DNA from: Arcticibacter pallidicorallinus
GTDB lineage: Bacteria; Bacteroidota; Bacteroidia; Sphingobacteriales; Sphingobacteriaceae
Length of the DNA stretch: 64,000 nucleotides
Direction of reading: 5' to 3'
Assembly: GCF_003002875.1 (NCBI RefSeq)
Contig: NZ_PVTH01000012.1
Coordinates: forward strand, 1 to 64,000
Shown here: positions 18,692 to 58,324 of the stretch, one piece after another
Position numbering within the stretch: the first letter of the stretch is position 1
Layout of the letters: every line of letters begins with the position of its first letter
The notes under the pieces: model-generated
Told to the model about the DNA's origin: nothing
The model's input: the letters and a program-made list of their open reading frames with translations, nothing else
The model's database searches: none
Made by a program: the position numbers and the translations under genes

Positions 18692-21175
18692 ATGAGTAAC
18701 TGGTTTAAACGAAATGGCATACATCTGGCCATCATTGCGCTCTTTATAGTATTATGCTTTATCTATTTCAGCCCTGCACTTCAGGGTAAGGTGCTCTACC
18801 AGAGTGACGTGATGCAGGCAAAAGCGATGCAGAGCGAGATCATGAAGTATAAAGCGGAAGACGGAAAGGCTCCCTTGTGGACGAATTCCATGTTCGGAGG
18901 AATGCCCGCTTATCAGATCTGGGCACAGTTTCCAAAGAACTTAACCTCTTACGTCGTTTCCTTCTTCAGCGCGGTGTTCCCTAACCCGGTCTATAACGTA
19001 TTACTCTATCTTTTGGGTGGCTATCTGATGTTCATCGCGTTAAGGGTTAAACCATTGCTCGCTGCCGCAGGTGCCATTGCCATCGCATTCTCGTCTTACA
19101 ACTTCATTATCATTGAAGCAGGACACACCAATAAAGCATTCGCTATTGCCTTCTTTGCTCCGATTGTTGCAGGTGTATTGATGACGCTCAGAGGACGCTA
19201 TCTGTGGGGATCAGTTATTACGGCGTTTTCCCTCGCCATGGAGATCAGAGCCAACCATATCCAGATGACCTATTATCTGTTCCTGGCTCTTCTGATCCTT
19301 GCCGGCATTGAATTATACCATGCCTACAAGAATAAAACACTACCAGCATTTGGTAAATCTATCGGATATCTGGCTGGCGCGGTTATTTTAGCGGTAGCTG
19401 TAAACGCGAGCATGCTATGGGTAACCTATGAATATGGACAGGAAACCATCCGCGGCAAGTCGAACCTGAGTCAGGATGCCTCCGCAGGGAAGCCATCTTC
19501 AGGTCTTGACCGTGAATATGCCTATACCTGGAGCCAGGGCGTCGGCGAGAACATTACGTTCTTAATTCCCAACGCCTATGGCGGGGAGTCAGGCCACCGT
19601 CTGGATAAAGATTCTGAAGTAGGTAAGACACTGGCAGCGAAGGGAATTCCTCAGGAGCAGGTTGAAGCCGCTGTGCAGCAGTTGCAGCAGTACGGCCTGA
19701 TCAACACCTATTGGGGAGATAAACCATTTACTTCCGGTCCGTACTATTTCGGCGCCATCGTCTGCCTGCTCTTTGTACTGGGTCTTTTTCTGATCCGCGA
19801 TCGTATCAAGTGGTGGATAGTTGCTGCAACAGTTCTCAGCTTATTCCTTTCATTTGGTAAAAACCTACCGTTTATCTCCGACCTTTTCTTCGATTACTTC
19901 CCACTGTATAACAAGTTCAGGGCGGTTGAATCCATTTTGGTCATCGCCGGCCTCCTCGTTCCCATACTTGCAATCATGGCGATTCAAGAGCTTGTTTCGG
20001 GTAAGCATGAAACAAAAGTACTTCTGAAGAAAGCTGCCTACTCGGTTTATATTACCGGGGGCATTATTTTGGTTATCCTGATTCTTCCCGGACTATTCCT
20101 AAGCTTTAAGGCGAGTAACCACCAGCAGGTGATTGAAGGGCTGACGCAGGCGGTAGGCGATCAAGGATTTGCCAACTCACTAGCCAACGCACTTATTGAA
20201 GACCGTACGAGCATGGCACGTGCAGACGCGTTGCGCTCCTTAATATTTGTCCTTATTGGTGCCGGACTTGTATGGGCGCTTATCAAGAAGACGATCAAGC
20301 AGGAGTACATATATGCCATATTTGCAATTGTAATACTGATCGACATGTGGGGAGTTGATCGTCGCTACCTGAATAACGAAAAATTTGTTGAGAAAAACAC
20401 CCTTGAGCAGAGCTTCCAGCCTCGCCAGGTTGACGAGCTGATCCTTCGCGATCCAAGCCTCAACTACCGGGTTCTGGACCTAACCACGAATACCTTCAGT
20501 AACGCAACCGCTTCCTACTTCCATAAGACAGTGGGTGGCTATCATGCTGCGAAGCTGAAGCGATTCCAGGAAGTGCTGGATAAGCAATTCAATAATGCCA
20601 TCAACGAAGACGTACTCGATATGCTGAATACCAAGTACGTCATCACCAATGATGAAAAAAACCAGTCTCAACGTATACAGAACAGAAGCACGGCCTGCGG
20701 AAACGCCTGGTTCGTATCTAACGTTCTTTGGGTGAAGAGTGCTGATGAAGAAATGCAGGGAATCAACAGCTTTGATCCTAAGAAAGAGGCTATTGTACAC
20801 GAAAGCTTCAAGTCACTTATCGATGTTAGAAAAGCAGGTGTCCCTGATCCGAATGCGAAAATTACTTTGACGAAGTATCACCCGGACCACCTGACCTACG
20901 AATACACCGCAGGCAAGGATATGATCGCCGTATTCGCTGAGGTATGGTATGATAAAGGCTGGAATGCCTATGTGGATGGTGAAAAGATTCCGTATTTCAG
21001 AGCGAATTATATTCTTCGTGCCGCTCAACTCCCTGGTGGAAACCACACCCTGGAGTTCAAGTTCGAACCGGTATCTTATTATGCAGGAGAAAATATTTCT
21101 CTGATCGCATCTATTCTTCTGATTGGAGGAATCGGATTCGCCGGTTACCGCGAACGTAAGAGAGGGAACAAGTAA
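18692..21175 (+). CDS. YfhO family multi-pass membrane protein (GT-C-like)
   Basis: An 827-residue integral membrane protein with about a dozen hydrophobic helices and large extracytoplasmic loops. It fits the YfhO family, whose Gram-positive members add sugars to lipoteichoic acid. Helix 1 spans residues 11-27, followed by an acidic first loop. The extracytoplasmic C-terminal domain (from about residue 620) contains KYVITNDE and EVWYDKGWNAYVDGE, typical of Bacteroidota YfhO proteins, and one last helix closes the chain. The substrate here is unknown; a lipid-linked sugar donor is inferred from the family. It has its own promoter and terminator. The convergent neighbouring operon also makes glycans. 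Confidence 0.85.
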   Translation: MSNWFKRNGIHLAIIALFIVLCFIYFSPALQGKVLYQSDVMQAKAMQSEIMKYKAEDGKAPLWTNSMFGGMPAYQIWAQFPKNLTSYVVSFFSAVFPNPVYNVLLYLLGGYLMFIALRVKPLLAAAGAIAIAFSSYNFIIIEAGHTNKAFAIAFFAPIVAGVLMTLRGRYLWGSVITAFSLAMEIRANHIQMTYYLFLALLILAGIELYHAYKNKTLPAFGKSIGYLAGAVILAVAVNASMLWVTYEYGQETIRGKSNLSQDASAGKPSSGLDREYAYTWSQGVGENITFLIPNAYGGESGHRLDKDSEVGKTLAAKGIPQEQVEAAVQQLQQYGLINTYWGDKPFTSGPYYFGAIVCLLFVLGLFLIRDRIKWWIVAATVLSLFLSFGKNLPFISDLFFDYFPLYNKFRAVESILVIAGLLVPILAIMAIQELVSGKHETKVLLKKAAYSVYITGGIILVILILPGLFLSFKASNHQQVIEGLTQAVGDQGFANSLANALIEDRTSMARADALRSLIFVLIGAGLVWALIKKTIKQEYIYAIFAIVILIDMWGVDRRYLNNEKFVEKNTLEQSFQPRQVDELILRDPSLNYRVLDLTTNTFSNATASYFHKTVGGYHAAKLKRFQEVLDKQFNNAINEDVLDMLNTKYVITNDEKNQSQRIQNRSTACGNAWFVSNVLWVKSADEEMQGINSFDPKKEAIVHESFKSLIDVRKAGVPDPNAKITLTKYHPDHLTYEYTAGKDMIAVFAEVWYDKGWNAYVDGEKIPYFRANYILRAAQLPGGNHTLEFKFEPVSYYAGENISLIASILLIGGIGFAGYRERKRGNK

Positions 21176-21193: not shown

Positions 21194-21237
21194 AAAAGGG
21201 ATAGTCGGTGATAACGGCTATCCCTTTTTCTTTTTAA
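21194..21237 (+). terminator. Terminator after the yfhO-like gene
   Basis: An AAAAGGGATAG arm pairs with CTATCCCTTTT across a 13-base loop, followed by more T residues. It lies 18 bases after the stop codon. Confidence 0.85.
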
Positions 21238-21266
21238 ATCTCTTTATGATTGTTTTCAGGCTTGAT

Positions 21267-21574
21267 TCTGAGCTTCTTTGGAACTTTTCTGAATTTCTTT
21301 CTGAACTTCTTCAGACCCTCTTTCGATCTCCTTCGGAACAACTGCAAATCTTCTTTCGACCCCTTTCTCAACTCCTTCCAGGCAGCCTCTTAGTCTCGCG
21401 CATATTAGCATTTCCCAAGAGTCGACTTATTGACGCAGCTGCTCCCTCTTTGGGTCGTATTACCTTCGACATTTATCGAAGCTGGTACGACGTTGGTACG
21501 GAGTTGACTCGAACCTGATACGGAATTTATAAAAGCATAGTCAAAGTATTCCCGAAAAGGGTATGGTAAGATAG
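21267..21574. repeat. Degenerate 11-bp periodic repeat array
   Basis: The 350 bases between the yfhO-like terminator and the glycosyltransferase gene hold no convincing gene. Instead they show an 11-bp periodicity. The first ten units (21267-21376) fit TCTGAACTTCT loosely: T in column 11 of nearly every unit, a G at or near column 4 and A residues at 5-6. From 21465 the same register continues with units of the form TACGACGTTGG, TACGGAGTTGA and CTCGAACCTGA. The centre is more decayed. Eleven bases is close to one helical turn. A 51-codon reading frame (21256-21411, minus) within it is Glu/Lys-rich and probably a by-product of the repeat. Confidence 0.6.
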
Positions 21575-21592
21575 TACAGCCTAGGGGGACGA

Positions 21593-23617
21593 TTAATCGT
21601 TAGTACGTTTGTGAAGGAAATAGTAAGCAGCGAGCTTCATACTGATGACAACATGGTTCAGGATATTCGATACAGTACCGTAGTGCTTGCTAAAGATCTG
21701 GAAGCGTTCTATAAGGCTCTGCCTGTGCTTGCGCTTGGACATCCCACCTACAAGGTATTTGGCCACATACATACCTGCAAACTGGGTTTTTTTAGCCTTT
21801 TTGATGGCATTTAGTATCCAGTCGATATCGGCGCTTAGCTGATAACGGGGATCATAGGGTATAACAAGCGAGCGGCGGATATAAATGGCCTGGTGACTGA
21901 CACTCATGCCGTAGCGGAAACTGGAATGCCTTAATCGTTCAGGAGCCTGATGGCGCCTGCGACCCAAACTTTCCCAGCGTTCGTTATACATCTCCGTCTC
22001 TCCGTAATAGATATCGGCATTATCTGCCGACGCGAAGATCTTGGCTACCGTGTCGGGAGCATATATCTCGTCGCCGGAGTTCATAAACAGCACGTAGTCG
22101 CCGGTGGCGAGTGCGAGTCCTTTGTTCATGGCATCGTAAATGCCGGCGTCTTTCTCGCTGATCAGCTTACTGATCCTGGATTCATGACGATGAAGGATGT
22201 CCAGTGTACCATCAGTAGATCCCCCATCAATAACGATATACTCGATGTTCTGATAGGTTTGATCGACCACAGAACGAATGGTACGCTCGATGTCTTGTAC
22301 ATTGTTGTAAACTACGGTAACGACCGACAGAAGGGGCTTAAACTTTGAATTCTTGCCTTTACCGGATACCTCATTATATAGAGCGATGTGTTTAGCTGCA
22401 ATTACGCTTTCAGAAAAGCGGGTCAGTACGGCTTCCCTCGCCGCTATATTCAACTGGTTGCGGTCCGTACGTCCGTATATCCAGGAGATTCCATTGGCAA
22501 AGTCATCTGCGGACTTGTACTGAGCAAGGTATCCATTTTCATGATGAGTAACCATGTCGGGGATACCGCCGGTGGTAAAGGCCACAACGGGAGTTCCGCA
22601 GGAAAGGCTCTCCATGACGGTATTAGGCAGATTGTCTTCGAGCGATGGGGTCAGAAATACGTCGGCAGCGCTGTAACACATGCTGAGTTTCTCATCATCG
22701 GATATCGTGCCCAGGAATGTCGTGTTGACGGCAAATTCTGGCACATTGGCTGTGTCCTTATTTCCGAAGATGATCAGCTCGACATCTTGCTTGTCGACCA
22801 TTCCTTTGTCGACGAGTATCTGCAAGGCTTCCAGCAGGTAAGGTGTTCCCTTATGCAGATCTTTGCGGGAAGGCATAAAGCCACTTAACATGATAAACTT
22901 ATCCTCAGGCAGTCCGAGGGTTTTTCGGGCAACTTTCTTATCCCAGGGCTTGAATATTGTCGTTTCGAGGGTATTGGGGATAACTTCTACCCTGGAGTGC
23001 TTCAGCAGAGAACTGCGACGGATGGAATCGTGCATCCAGCGGCTCGGAGCTACGATGGAGAAATTCAGTTGCTGATAGGCCTTATTTTTCCGCTTCCAGA
23101 TCTTGTGCGACTGGTCGTCAGGATTTTCATTTTTAAGAAGGGGACAATTGCCGCATTCATTTTCGAAATGGTCACAGCTATAGCGAACATGACACCCGCC
23201 GGTGAAGGCATTGCTGTCATGAAAAGTCCACACCACAGGCTTACCCAGCTTACTGAGGCTGGCCAGGTCTTCGGGACGCAGGAAGGCGTGATTTATCCAG
23301 TGAATATGGATAATATCGGCGTCTTGCACAGCCTTGTTTCGAGTGATATTCTTTCCCCAAAGCGCTGCCGAGAACGGAATCTTCAGGGGTTTTGATATGT
23401 AAGAAGAGTAATAGCGTTCGAATAAGATACCGAATGCGGACAGGCCACGGGATATCAGTGAGGATGAAAAGGTTTGAACCTGTGGATTAGAGCCGAATTT
23501 ATAGCTAACCCAGACTTGCGATTGCAGGCCTTCGGCAAGCAAAGCCTGATGCAGCCGGAGACATGCGCGGCCTGCACCCCCATTCCCATCGTATGTGTTT
23601 ATATGAACTACCTTCAC
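21593..23617 (-). CDS. Two-domain glycosyltransferase (GT4 + GT2 fusion)
   Basis: A 674-residue protein made of two complete transferases. Residues 1-395 are a GT-B fold GT4 enzyme: an N-terminal acceptor domain with NTYDGNGGAGRACLRL, then VEVIPNT and a donor-binding segment with PSLEDNLPNTVMESLSCGTPVVAF. Residues about 402-674 are a GT-A fold GT2 enzyme starting LLSVVTVVYNN, with DGGSTDGT and MNSGDEIY as the metal/nucleotide motif. It should add two sugars in succession to a surface glycan. The start codon is GTG. It is the last gene of the glycan operon, 20 bases after the previous gene. Acceptor and sugars are unknown. Confidence 0.85.
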   Translation of the reverse strand: MKVVHINTYDGNGGAGRACLRLHQALLAEGLQSQVWVSYKFGSNPQVQTFSSSLISRGLSAFGILFERYYSSYISKPLKIPFSAALWGKNITRNKAVQDADIIHIHWINHAFLRPEDLASLSKLGKPVVWTFHDSNAFTGGCHVRYSCDHFENECGNCPLLKNENPDDQSHKIWKRKNKAYQQLNFSIVAPSRWMHDSIRRSSLLKHSRVEVIPNTLETTIFKPWDKKVARKTLGLPEDKFIMLSGFMPSRKDLHKGTPYLLEALQILVDKGMVDKQDVELIIFGNKDTANVPEFAVNTTFLGTISDDEKLSMCYSAADVFLTPSLEDNLPNTVMESLSCGTPVVAFTTGGIPDMVTHHENGYLAQYKSADDFANGISWIYGRTDRNQLNIAAREAVLTRFSESVIAAKHIALYNEVSGKGKNSKFKPLLSVVTVVYNNVQDIERTIRSVVDQTYQNIEYIVIDGGSTDGTLDILHRHESRISKLISEKDAGIYDAMNKGLALATGDYVLFMNSGDEIYAPDTVAKIFASADNADIYYGETEMYNERWESLGRRRHQAPERLRHSSFRYGMSVSHQAIYIRRSLVIPYDPRYQLSADIDWILNAIKKAKKTQFAGMYVAKYLVGGMSKRKHRQSLIERFQIFSKHYGTVSNILNHVVISMKLAAYYFLHKRTND

Positions 23618-55767: not shown

Positions 55768-56583
55768 TTATTTGTGGGTACTTGCGTAAGTCTGAACAAT
55801 CGAGAAGCCTGCTTCGTCAATTGAATAAGTCAGCTTATCAATTTTTGAGGTAAAGATGTTGTACATAATGATCGCAATAGTAGATACCGCGATACCTGTA
55901 GCCGTGTTAATCAATGCCTCAGAGATACCGTTTGCTAACGCAGCCTGGTCAGGCGCACCTGCAGTTGCAAGAGCCGCAAACGATTTAATCATACCTGTTA
56001 CTGTTCCTAACAGACCAACCAGCGTACCTACTGATACCAAAGTTGCGATAATTGTCAGGTTCTGCTCCAACATTGGCATTTCCAAAGCGGTAGCTTCTTC
56101 AATGTCCTTCTGGATTGCTAATGAAGCCTGCTCAGTATCGATACCCTGATCTGCTTCAACTTCTCTGTATTTTTTCAAACCTGACTTAATCACGTTTGCT
56201 ACAGATCCTTTTTGTTTGTCACACTCAGCCATTGCTGACTCAATGTTTCCTGCAGATAATAAAGTTTGAATTTTTCTTACGAAAACCTCAACGCTTCCAG
56301 ATCCGGCAGCTTTAGAGATTACGATGTACCGCTCGATTGAAAAAACGATTACCATTAAAAGCATTCCGAATAATAACGGTACAATAACACCGCCTTTATA
56401 GATCATCCCAGGAAAGTTCCCCGGTAGTGGTTGTCCATCTTCGCCGAAATTACCAGGATGTCCCATTACGAACTTCCAGATTAGTACTCCAATAATAATA
56501 CAGATAACGATGGTCAAACTTGCGAAAAGGTTTGAACCAGTGCTTTCTTTCTTAGCAGTTGTTGGTTTTGGTGCGGTTGCCAT
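55768..56583 (-). CDS. ExbB/TolQ/MotA-type proton channel protein
   Basis: A 271-residue membrane protein with an N-terminal helix (residues 20-42), a second helix (VPLLFGMLLMVIVFSIERYIVI) and a conserved pair towards the C-terminus (IIATLVSVGTLVGLLGTVTGMIKSFAAL and ALINTATGIAVSTIAIIMYNIF). It forms the pentameric stator that uses proton flow to move TonB. It is the first gene of the seven-gene operon, with a -7 box about 70 bases upstream. Confidence 0.93.
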   Translation of the reverse strand: MATAPKPTTAKKESTGSNLFASLTIVICIIIGVLIWKFVMGHPGNFGEDGQPLPGNFPGMIYKGGVIVPLLFGMLLMVIVFSIERYIVISKAAGSGSVEVFVRKIQTLLSAGNIESAMAECDKQKGSVANVIKSGLKKYREVEADQGIDTEQASLAIQKDIEEATALEMPMLEQNLTIIATLVSVGTLVGLLGTVTGMIKSFAALATAGAPDQAALANGISEALINTATGIAVSTIAIIMYNIFTSKIDKLTYSIDEAGFSIVQTYASTHK

Positions 56584-56653
56584 TCTTCTTGAAATTTAGT
56601 TTTTAGTTTTAATTTAATATAATAGTTGCTACTTATTTGCAATGATACGATAA

Positions 56654-56661
56654 CAAAAATA
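56654..56661 (-). promoter_or_regulatory. -7 promoter box of the exbB operon
   Basis: TATTTTTG on the minus strand fits TAnnTTTG. It would give a leader of about 65 nucleotides that is AT-rich. The -33 region has T-runs but no clear TTG. Confidence 0.45.
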
Positions 56662-56865
56662 GAATTTTGAAATTAATAAAAATGTGATTTAAATTACATT
56701 TATAAGGCCGTTTTCAGACATTCTTTTCATCAGCTTATTCACTCCTCTCTCATTTTTCAGGTAACTTTCTTAATAATCGGATACAATAAAAACCATTTTT
56801 TTCTGGAAATGCAAACATCTGAAATAAAAAGGCGCCTGATTTGGCTCACAATTTGACTTCTAGAC

Positions 56866-58159: not shown

Positions 58160-58166
58160 CAGTGCT

Positions 58167-58236
58167 AAGTGGACTGATTTGCTTTGTTCCTCCGGAATAA
58201 GATTGCAACCACGTAAAAAAATTGCTAATTCATGCT
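58167..58236 (+). promoter_or_regulatory. SAM-II (metA-type) riboswitch upstream of metK
   Basis: The leader contains the conserved blocks of the SAM-II aptamer in order. These are P1 5' arm GTGG (58169-58172), TGATTT (58175-58180), ATTGCA (58202-58207), P1 3' arm CCAC (58209-58212) followed by GTAAA, and GCTAA (58224-58228). GCAA after the loop can also pair with TTGC (58222-58225) to close the pseudoknot. A small hairpin (TTCC/GGAA) enlarges the first loop. SAM-II elements sense S-adenosylmethionine and turn off methionine/SAM genes, and metK makes SAM, so the context fits. The 3' part reaches an ATG at 58232 rather than metK itself. Confidence 0.72.
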
Positions 58237-58324
58237 TTCTTTTACACTTGCTGGTCTTAGCCTGATCGTCTTCCTTAAGCATTATATCTTAAACTATAAA
58301 TATGCCGTATTTATTTACCTCTGA
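58232..58324 (+). CDS. Possible 30-residue hydrophobic leader peptide overlapping metK
   Basis: A small frame opens 3 bases after the last conserved riboswitch block, begins MLSFTLAGL and is largely hydrophobic. It ends with TGA 22 bases inside metK in another frame. Its ATG lies where a SAM-II pseudoknot normally hides the ribosome-binding site, so it could be the directly controlled start, with metK coupled to it. It may equally be chance. Confidence 0.3.

Follow-up and report, generated by a model that had tools for sequence, protein, structure and literature searches.

What is the periodic sequence that lies between a YfhO-like gene and a glycosyltransferase gene in the 64,000-nt stretch of Arcticibacter pallidicorallinus DNA analysed here (the window)? 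A sequence-only reading had laid about 28 degenerate 11-bp units end to end across nucleotides 21267-21574, and had suggested curved DNA, a site for a phased binding protein, or a decaying family of genomic repeats. We have compared this junction with the rest of its genome and with related genomes, and on balance we think it rather probable that the sequence is a decayed member of a dispersed, intergenic family of palindromic repeats of the Sphingobacteriaceae, copied in trans by a putative machinery.

Organization of the junction

The 11-bp periodicity is genuine and greatly exceeds what chance would give. Over nucleotides 21267-21574, the identity of bases 11 apart was 0.414, vs 0.258 in 1000 dinucleotide-preserving shuffles, none of which scored as high (z 6.1), and identities at lags 22 and 33 were likewise raised; the periodicity thereby withstood the autocorrelation test that the sequence-only reading had named as its own check. 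When 308-base segments were ranked through the whole 64-kb window, the top lag-11 value was obtained for the segment starting at 21242. The second-highest lag-11 stretch of the window, 56470-56780, is A/T-rich.

The 11-bp units do not, however, run on without interruption as had been proposed. Two periodic arrays, of approximately 14 and 8 units by length, flank a 70-bp aperiodic spacer (Table 1), and the segment from 21546 to 21592 is not periodic either (lag-11 identity 0.194, p 0.83). The accompanying claim, that left and right units share one register, agrees with our finding that the left-array profile fits the right array best at a phase shift of 0 of 11, an outcome that chance alone would give 1 time in 11. 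The left part is pyrimidine-rich on the + strand (0.66) and the right part on the - strand, and the complement of the left array resembles the right array as judged by eye, as an inverted arm would. At the best palindrome centre, 43% of the positions in 100-bp arms are paired; 0.02% of the centres throughout the window do as well. As RNA, the window copy folded no better than shuffled sequences on either strand, and a further comparison with shuffles gave z -0.5.

Table 1. Features of the YfhO/glycosyltransferase junction and of the window copy of the element
Feature	Position	Strand	Observations
YfhO-like gene	18692-21175	+	Left neighbour
Hairpin resembling an intrinsic terminator, downstream of the YfhO-like gene and not part of the element	21194-21236	+	Read directly
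Element as a whole, ~350 bp	21237-21592		Additional to what G004 and G003 have at this junction; ends approximate
Left array, degenerate 11-bp units of type TTCTGAACTTC	21236-21390	-	Periodic, lag-11 identity 0.472 vs 0.287 shuffled, p 0.001; higher-order 33-bp repeat (21267-21390), z 7.2; TRF period 12 at 21266-21311
Spacer without 11-bp periodicity	21391-21460		Lag-11 identity 0.254, p 0.53
Best palindrome centre (~21472/21473), imperfect hairpin GTCGTA..TATCGAAGCTGGTACGAC	21454-21491		Best of 160 centres tried; also in RNA fold
Right array TCGAAGCTGG TACGACGTTGG TACGGAGTTGA CTCGAACCTGA TACGG	21461-21545	+	Periodic, lag-11 identity 0.50 vs 0.251 shuffled, p 0.001; TRF period 11 at 21477-21506
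Dispersed core, at nine more places in the genome; outer right-arm module of the P. koreensis complete element	21476-21501	+	BLAST and pattern searches
Glycosyltransferase gene stop	21593-21595	-	Right neighbour, convergent

Intrinsically curved DNA, produced by phased A/T runs, would be expected to show a period such as the one observed. The AA/TT power at periods of 10, 10.5, 11 and 11.5 bp, which was the only test of curvature run, was nevertheless not above that of shuffles in the window copy (p 0.25 to 0.66), and we regard this suggestion of the earlier reading as highly improbable. We would give equally little credence to a remnant of a protein with 11-residue repeats. The 90-codon ORF at 21246-21518 is open through both arrays, and the left array holds a 33-bp repeat that is stronger than the 11-bp one (lag-33 identity 0.63); against this, the ORF had no Pfam match and a PHROG match only at E 0.059, the period of 11, which is no multiple of 3, is itself strong, and the core recurs at nine other places, none within an ORF of >97 codons as called.

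The position given by the sequence-only reading was correct: the YfhO-like gene is followed by a terminator-like hairpin and then, beyond the element, by the end of the glycosyltransferase gene. A tblastn search of plasmids with the YfhO-like protein yielded nothing useful. Rfam gave no match on the arrays themselves; the one feature anywhere in the window that reached its gathering score was a SAM-II riboswitch at 58163-58238 (+). The start of the window contig (1-112) is the same as the starts of L015 and L016 (1-252), and it resembles an outward-reading rRNA-operon promoter; these shared contig starts are probably assembly breaks at rRNA operons.

Copies of the right-array core in the same genome

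A BLAST search of this genome with the junction sequence found parts of 21464-21524 again in ten other matches, which fall at nine places; against 30 relatives there was no match at E 0.001. BLAST and pattern searches together located the right-array core at ten places in this genome, window included (the reversed control pattern had one match). TCGAAGCWGGTACGACGYTGGTACG can be read at all ten of these GGTACG-type places, and the likeness among the nine copies that were aligned falls off outward from that core. None of the places overlaps an ORF of >97 codons as called; shorter ORFs overlap two of them, the window copy and C3. Where both neighbouring genes are known (seven places), these are divergent at five, codirectional at one, and convergent at one, the window. 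For eight other copies of this type that were folded, z ranged from 0.02 to -3.4. Two of the copies, at L012 6235-6571 and L014 10510-10972, are within about 350 bp of a tRNA-Pro and a tRNA-Met gene.

Complete palindromic elements in the Sphingobacteriaceae

The pattern GGTACGN5GGTACGN5GG found other versions of 11-bp arrays in two genomes of the same genus, G003 and G002, and had no match in three more, G001, G004 and G005. Across the family this pattern was unspecific, with matches in 90 of 201 genomes and with reversed-pattern controls that were similar in size in many of them. When a collection covering 84,980 species, from which records of the present genome were perhaps excluded, was searched with a 23-base motif (20 fixed bases), a single contig matched; by our estimate, chance would supply about 0.5 matches. 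The contig is from Parapedobacter koreensis (G041), a member of the Sphingobacteriaceae, and the motif there makes up the outer part of a long palindrome phased at 11 bp. The window copy and this complete element have the outer-arm motif GAAGCNGGTACGACNNTGGTACG in common, in the same 11-bp phase.

A second pattern, TGGACTN5TGGACTN5TGGA, was found in 37 of the 201 family genomes; in G086 alone it had 51 matches, vs 0 for the reversed pattern. The complete element is an imperfect palindrome of ~200 bp, with an A/T-rich centre (TTTTT-N4-AAAAA) and arms of 11-bp units. Complete copies, when read in 11-mers, proceed from outer left units through inner left units GTGAGTCCA to the centre TTTTTNNNNAAAAA, which is followed on the right by 2-5 inner units TGGACTCANNN and then by CGAAGAAAGTACGAAG or a similar unit. 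The inner-arm unit TGGACTCANNN takes the form TGGCCTCANNN in this genome. The outer-arm units, which one subfamily has as GGTACGANNNN, keep to the 11-bp phase of the inner ones. A TGGACT-type array was seen at 39 of 40 loci.

We made a sequence profile, R1, from 26 right arms of complete elements; its TGGACT columns are biased, because the source elements had been chosen by the TGGACT pattern. At E 0.001, profile R1 matched 35 of the 201 family genomes, which represent 7 of 25 genera and include all six genomes of the genus, and it matched ten places in the present genome. Many of the places listed were matched on both strands side by side, as expected of two arms. Among 296 genomes drawn from the phylum, two were matched, namely the present genome, which is counted in both sets, and, weakly, G490; at least seven other genomes of the same family in this draw had no R1 match, and the filters of both searches drop weak matches. 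Of the places with GGTACG arrays, three of nine in G003 and one of six in P. koreensis lay within 200 bp of an R1 match listed, whereas none of the five in G002 did. In the window and 20 further stretches, R1 had no match up to E 10 under default filters.

Nine of the ten complete elements of this genome (all but L265) were each compared with 60 shuffles, and every one folded far better than these (z -4.3 to -11.0). Nine complete copies have identities of 0.61-0.90 within ~50 bp of the centre, falling to background beyond ~100 bp. Because the window copy has no R1 match and folds no better than shuffles, its membership in the family rests on the outer-arm motif, the phase and the dispersal; in our reading it belongs, in decayed form, to the GGTACG subfamily, and the copy would descend from the family that includes the complete elements. 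The third suggestion of the earlier reading, a decaying repeat family, is thereby favoured: the core is at ten places in this genome, complete relatives are found family-wide, and the window copy lacks both a profile match and a stable fold.

Arrays of quite different units, AGCGGAGAACG and GGTAAGGAAAG, also with a period of 11, were present in P. koreensis. Four long AGCGGAGAACG arrays in that genome (L089, L092, L095 and L106) have flanks that are partly common and neighbouring genes that differ. In G002, three arrays of the GGTACGGCCAT type (L038, L041 and L044) lie ~600 bp upstream of 16S rRNA genes, and in G003 an array (L034 1500-1940) lies ~200-250 bp upstream of a cobalamin riboswitch. 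Three viral contigs from IMG/VR (L066, L067 and L068), two of which have common surroundings, bear GGTACGA arrays at 11-bp spacing. Several arrays of relatives are traversed by ORFs of ~114 to 551 codons, which we have provisionally taken for chance.

Empty sites and the pace of gain

Comparison of the same junction in relatives, which had been recommended for sister strains, was made here between species of the genus. The flanking genes are kept and the element is absent in G004 and G003, the intergenic gap being 417 bp in the present genome, 54 bp in G004 and 25 bp in G003. (The YfhO-like gene of G003, L257, has one in-frame TAA, from an error or a pseudogene.) In G001, G005 and G002, other sequence without an array is located downstream of the YfhO-like gene (highest lag-11 identities 0.42, 0.41 and 0.47). 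A second junction, between genes that we take to be RecF-like and TPR-like, measures 452 bp here and carries a complete element; the corresponding gaps in relatives, of 110, 110, 149, 351 and 336 bp, are without a visible element (highest lag-11 identities 0.36, 0.44 and 0.35 in the three long gaps; the two short gaps were judged by eye), and the relatives retain the sequence that precedes the TPR-like gene. Both of the two junctions are therefore empty in relatives that keep them, an insertion polymorphism between species rather than strains. We infer that the empty sites reflect gain in this lineage and not loss in the relatives, which would need several events. No clean target duplication was found at the occupied and empty junctions read, whose flanks are too diverged for placing the ends of the element.

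In the close pair G001 and G005, the element is at the same place for six of nine G001 sites, among the ten G005 loci fetched; both genomes have more matches. Movement is accordingly slow, and copies, so it appears, arise at new places on the scale of the genus and then stay. In all six orthologous pairs the 110-bp core was more alike (0.78-0.95) than the flanks (0.55-0.77), with gaps scored as mismatches and with pairs chosen since both members match R1, a choice that favours a conserved core.

We also considered co-variation of the two arms. When arms were reassigned among copies, p was 0.0002 for G086 (11 copies), 0.02 for G082 (9), 0.02 for a mixed set from one genus (13), 0.13 for G131 (6) and 0.06 for the copies of this genome (10). 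This was not borne out by the orthologous pairs, in which compensatory double changes were few (3, vs 29 single breaks; 44 pairs gained and 257 kept).

Relation to neighbouring genes

A bidirectional terminator, or a transcription insulator between genes, would suit the window copy, which separates convergent genes and is pyrimidine-rich on opposite strands in its left and right parts, and it would suit the strong hairpins of complete copies in this genome. We consider it quite improbable on two grounds. The YfhO-like gene has a terminator-like hairpin that is outside the element, and G004 has its own hairpin after that gene, without an element. Also, 42 classified arrays from several genomes lie in 22 codirectional, 12 divergent and 8 convergent gaps, which approximates the background of 105, 48 and 29 for gaps of at least 200 bp; neither a terminator-like nor a promoter-like preference shows, nor does the tendency of the GGTACG-type places of this genome towards divergent gaps. 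This count derives from 53 loci, of which 10 lacked a neighbour on one side and 1 had no core found; array-overlapping ORFs were left out.

Mechanisms of dispersal and conservation

Occurrence in many copies between genes is a property by which MITEs are recognized; this genome has 10 places of the GGTACG type, which overlap no ORF of >97 codons, and 10 of the TGGCCT type. Conserved terminal inverted repeats, another such property, were not found, identity being highest in mid-element and at background at the ends. This fading of conservation towards the ends is the opposite of what is expected of a transposon that needs its ends. Also, 150 of the 166 flanking proteins listed gave 182 Pfam families, and the 25 most frequent of these include no transposase. 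REP sequences or REPINs mobilised by a RAYT would likewise be dispersed and palindromic, with units that vary by species. However, REP palindromes are of 20-40 bp according to the part of the account cited (PMC3733652), as opposed to the 11-bp arrays found here, and the Y1 transposase (PF01797) was not found in 12 of the 15 genomes searched (the present genome, G000, with G001-G005, G041, G086, G082, G076, G049 and G012) and found in 3. We therefore see very little prospect for a RAYT-driven origin. Both REPINs and a classical MITE recognized by its ends are disfavoured, because no Y1 transposase was found in this genome, because no transposase is among the most frequent families of flanking proteins, and because conservation peaks in the middle of the element.

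Copying in trans, as in the reading that we favour, would deliver the element to new intergenic sites and would keep its middle and not its ends. The arrangement that fits best is one in which a hairpin or cruciform centre would be read by a putative factor, with the units of the arms facing the same side of the helix. With units one helical turn long, the arms would present identical contacts on a single face of the duplex or of an extruded hairpin, and a multimeric protein, such as the phased binding protein that the sequence-only reading suggested, could bind there.

Units of unrelated sequence (TGGACTCANNN, AGCGGAGAACG, GGTAAGGAAAG, TCGATGAATTC and GGTACGACGTT) all repeat at 11 bp, and the complete copies have inverted arms and an A/T-rich centre. 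It is conceivable, although we would not presume it, that selection keeps the period and not the sequence, so that the element would work through helical geometry (wrapping, a cruciform or a same-face multimer) while its letters drift freely between species. Regulators of the OmpR/PhoB type and gyrase also relate to ~11 bp; a literature search for gyrase with 11-bp wrapping found nothing. A period of ~11 bp is the one usually tied to negatively supercoiled DNA (PMC4132750).

That link is one of several observations consistent with a site of chromosome architecture, selected by the host for wrapping or binding (by gyrase, a nucleoid protein or a ParR-like multimer), of which new copies would come from selection and conversion instead of a mobile system. 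Others are the retention of period 11 by unrelated units, the more conserved core in six of six R1-chosen, and hence biased, orthologous pairs, the three G002 arrays upstream of 16S rRNA genes, and the requirement of the ParR protein of plasmid R1 for two 11-bp repeats (PMC9426499, as far as the portion cited describes it). Yet profile R1 matches just 35 of 201 family genomes, the sites differ among species of one genus, and there is neither an orientation preference nor a common neighbour family; we consider this explanation unlikely.

Comparison with known repeat families

The closest published kind that we found is the BrickBuilt MITE of Porphyromonas, and the present family seems to be new. 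According to the part of the report cited (PMC4596501), BrickBuilt occurs as 19 copies in P. gingivalis ATCC 33277, always intergenic, with a minisatellite body and no internal transposase. The two families are alike in having a Bacteroidota host, intergenic sites and a body of tandem repeats. They differ in the unit, which is 23 nt in BrickBuilt vs 11 bp here, and in the short IS5-like terminal inverted repeats of BrickBuilt: a search of the window element together with nine complete copies found no BrickBuilt/ISPg3-type 12-mer within 2 mismatches, and one at 3 mismatches. The same part of that report (PMC4596501) has no account of inverted arms of the same units, such as those seen here, and it describes BrickBuilt from P. 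gingivalis and P. gulae only, vs several genera (7 of 25) for the present family.

ERIC, RUP, NEMIS and other bacterial MITEs, which have no coding capacity, are, in the cited parts of their descriptions (PMC10969869, PMC3733652), similarly short, mostly intergenic, present in tens of copies and able to form stem-loops once transcribed. They bear terminal inverted repeats, whereas here the centre is conserved, the ends fade and the arms are phased by helical turn. The pneumococcal BOX element resembles ours as a composite with a variable number of internal tandem modules, but its boxB modules lie between boxA and boxC and, in the section cited, are not described as one-turn units in inverted arms (PMC3049150). 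The parC locus of plasmid R1 has 11-bp direct repeats, at least two of which are needed for ParR binding; as described in the portion cited, it is a plasmid locus upstream of parM, in contrast to repeats dispersed over a chromosome (PMC9426499). Our literature search, which covered few subscription journals, found no description of the present repeat family.

If our reading is true, one family of Bacteroidota bears dispersed palindromes with arms ruled in helical turns, for which we found no description. With such palindromes one could readily ask whether selection in bacteria acts on the phase of DNA independently of its letters, and a protein that reads them might be sought upstream of rRNA genes (in one genome) and in the divergent gaps that hold five of the seven GGTACG-type places considered in this genome.

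Other periodic arrays

Averaged over the intergenic DNA of a genome, the lag-11 signal was weak: z was 2.6 for P. koreensis and 1.5 for the present genome, and lag 9 was higher in both. In a scan of all periods through 1.27 Mb of stretches, window included, period 11 accounted for 12 strong arrays, although 4 of these 12 stretches were merely A/T-rich. Other common periods were 7 (26 arrays), 21 (14), 6 (12), 14 (11), and 15 and 18 (8 each), followed by 9 and 28 (7 each), 27 (6), 12, 22 and 24 (5 each) and 30 (4); periods 5, 8, 10, 13, 16, 17, 19, 20, 23, 25, 26 and 29 had 0 to 3 arrays each. Separate 7-bp periodic repeats (14, 21, 28), for example CAACCTTCAACTTT, were observed in L274 822-1157 and in stretches of G002, G003 and G012.
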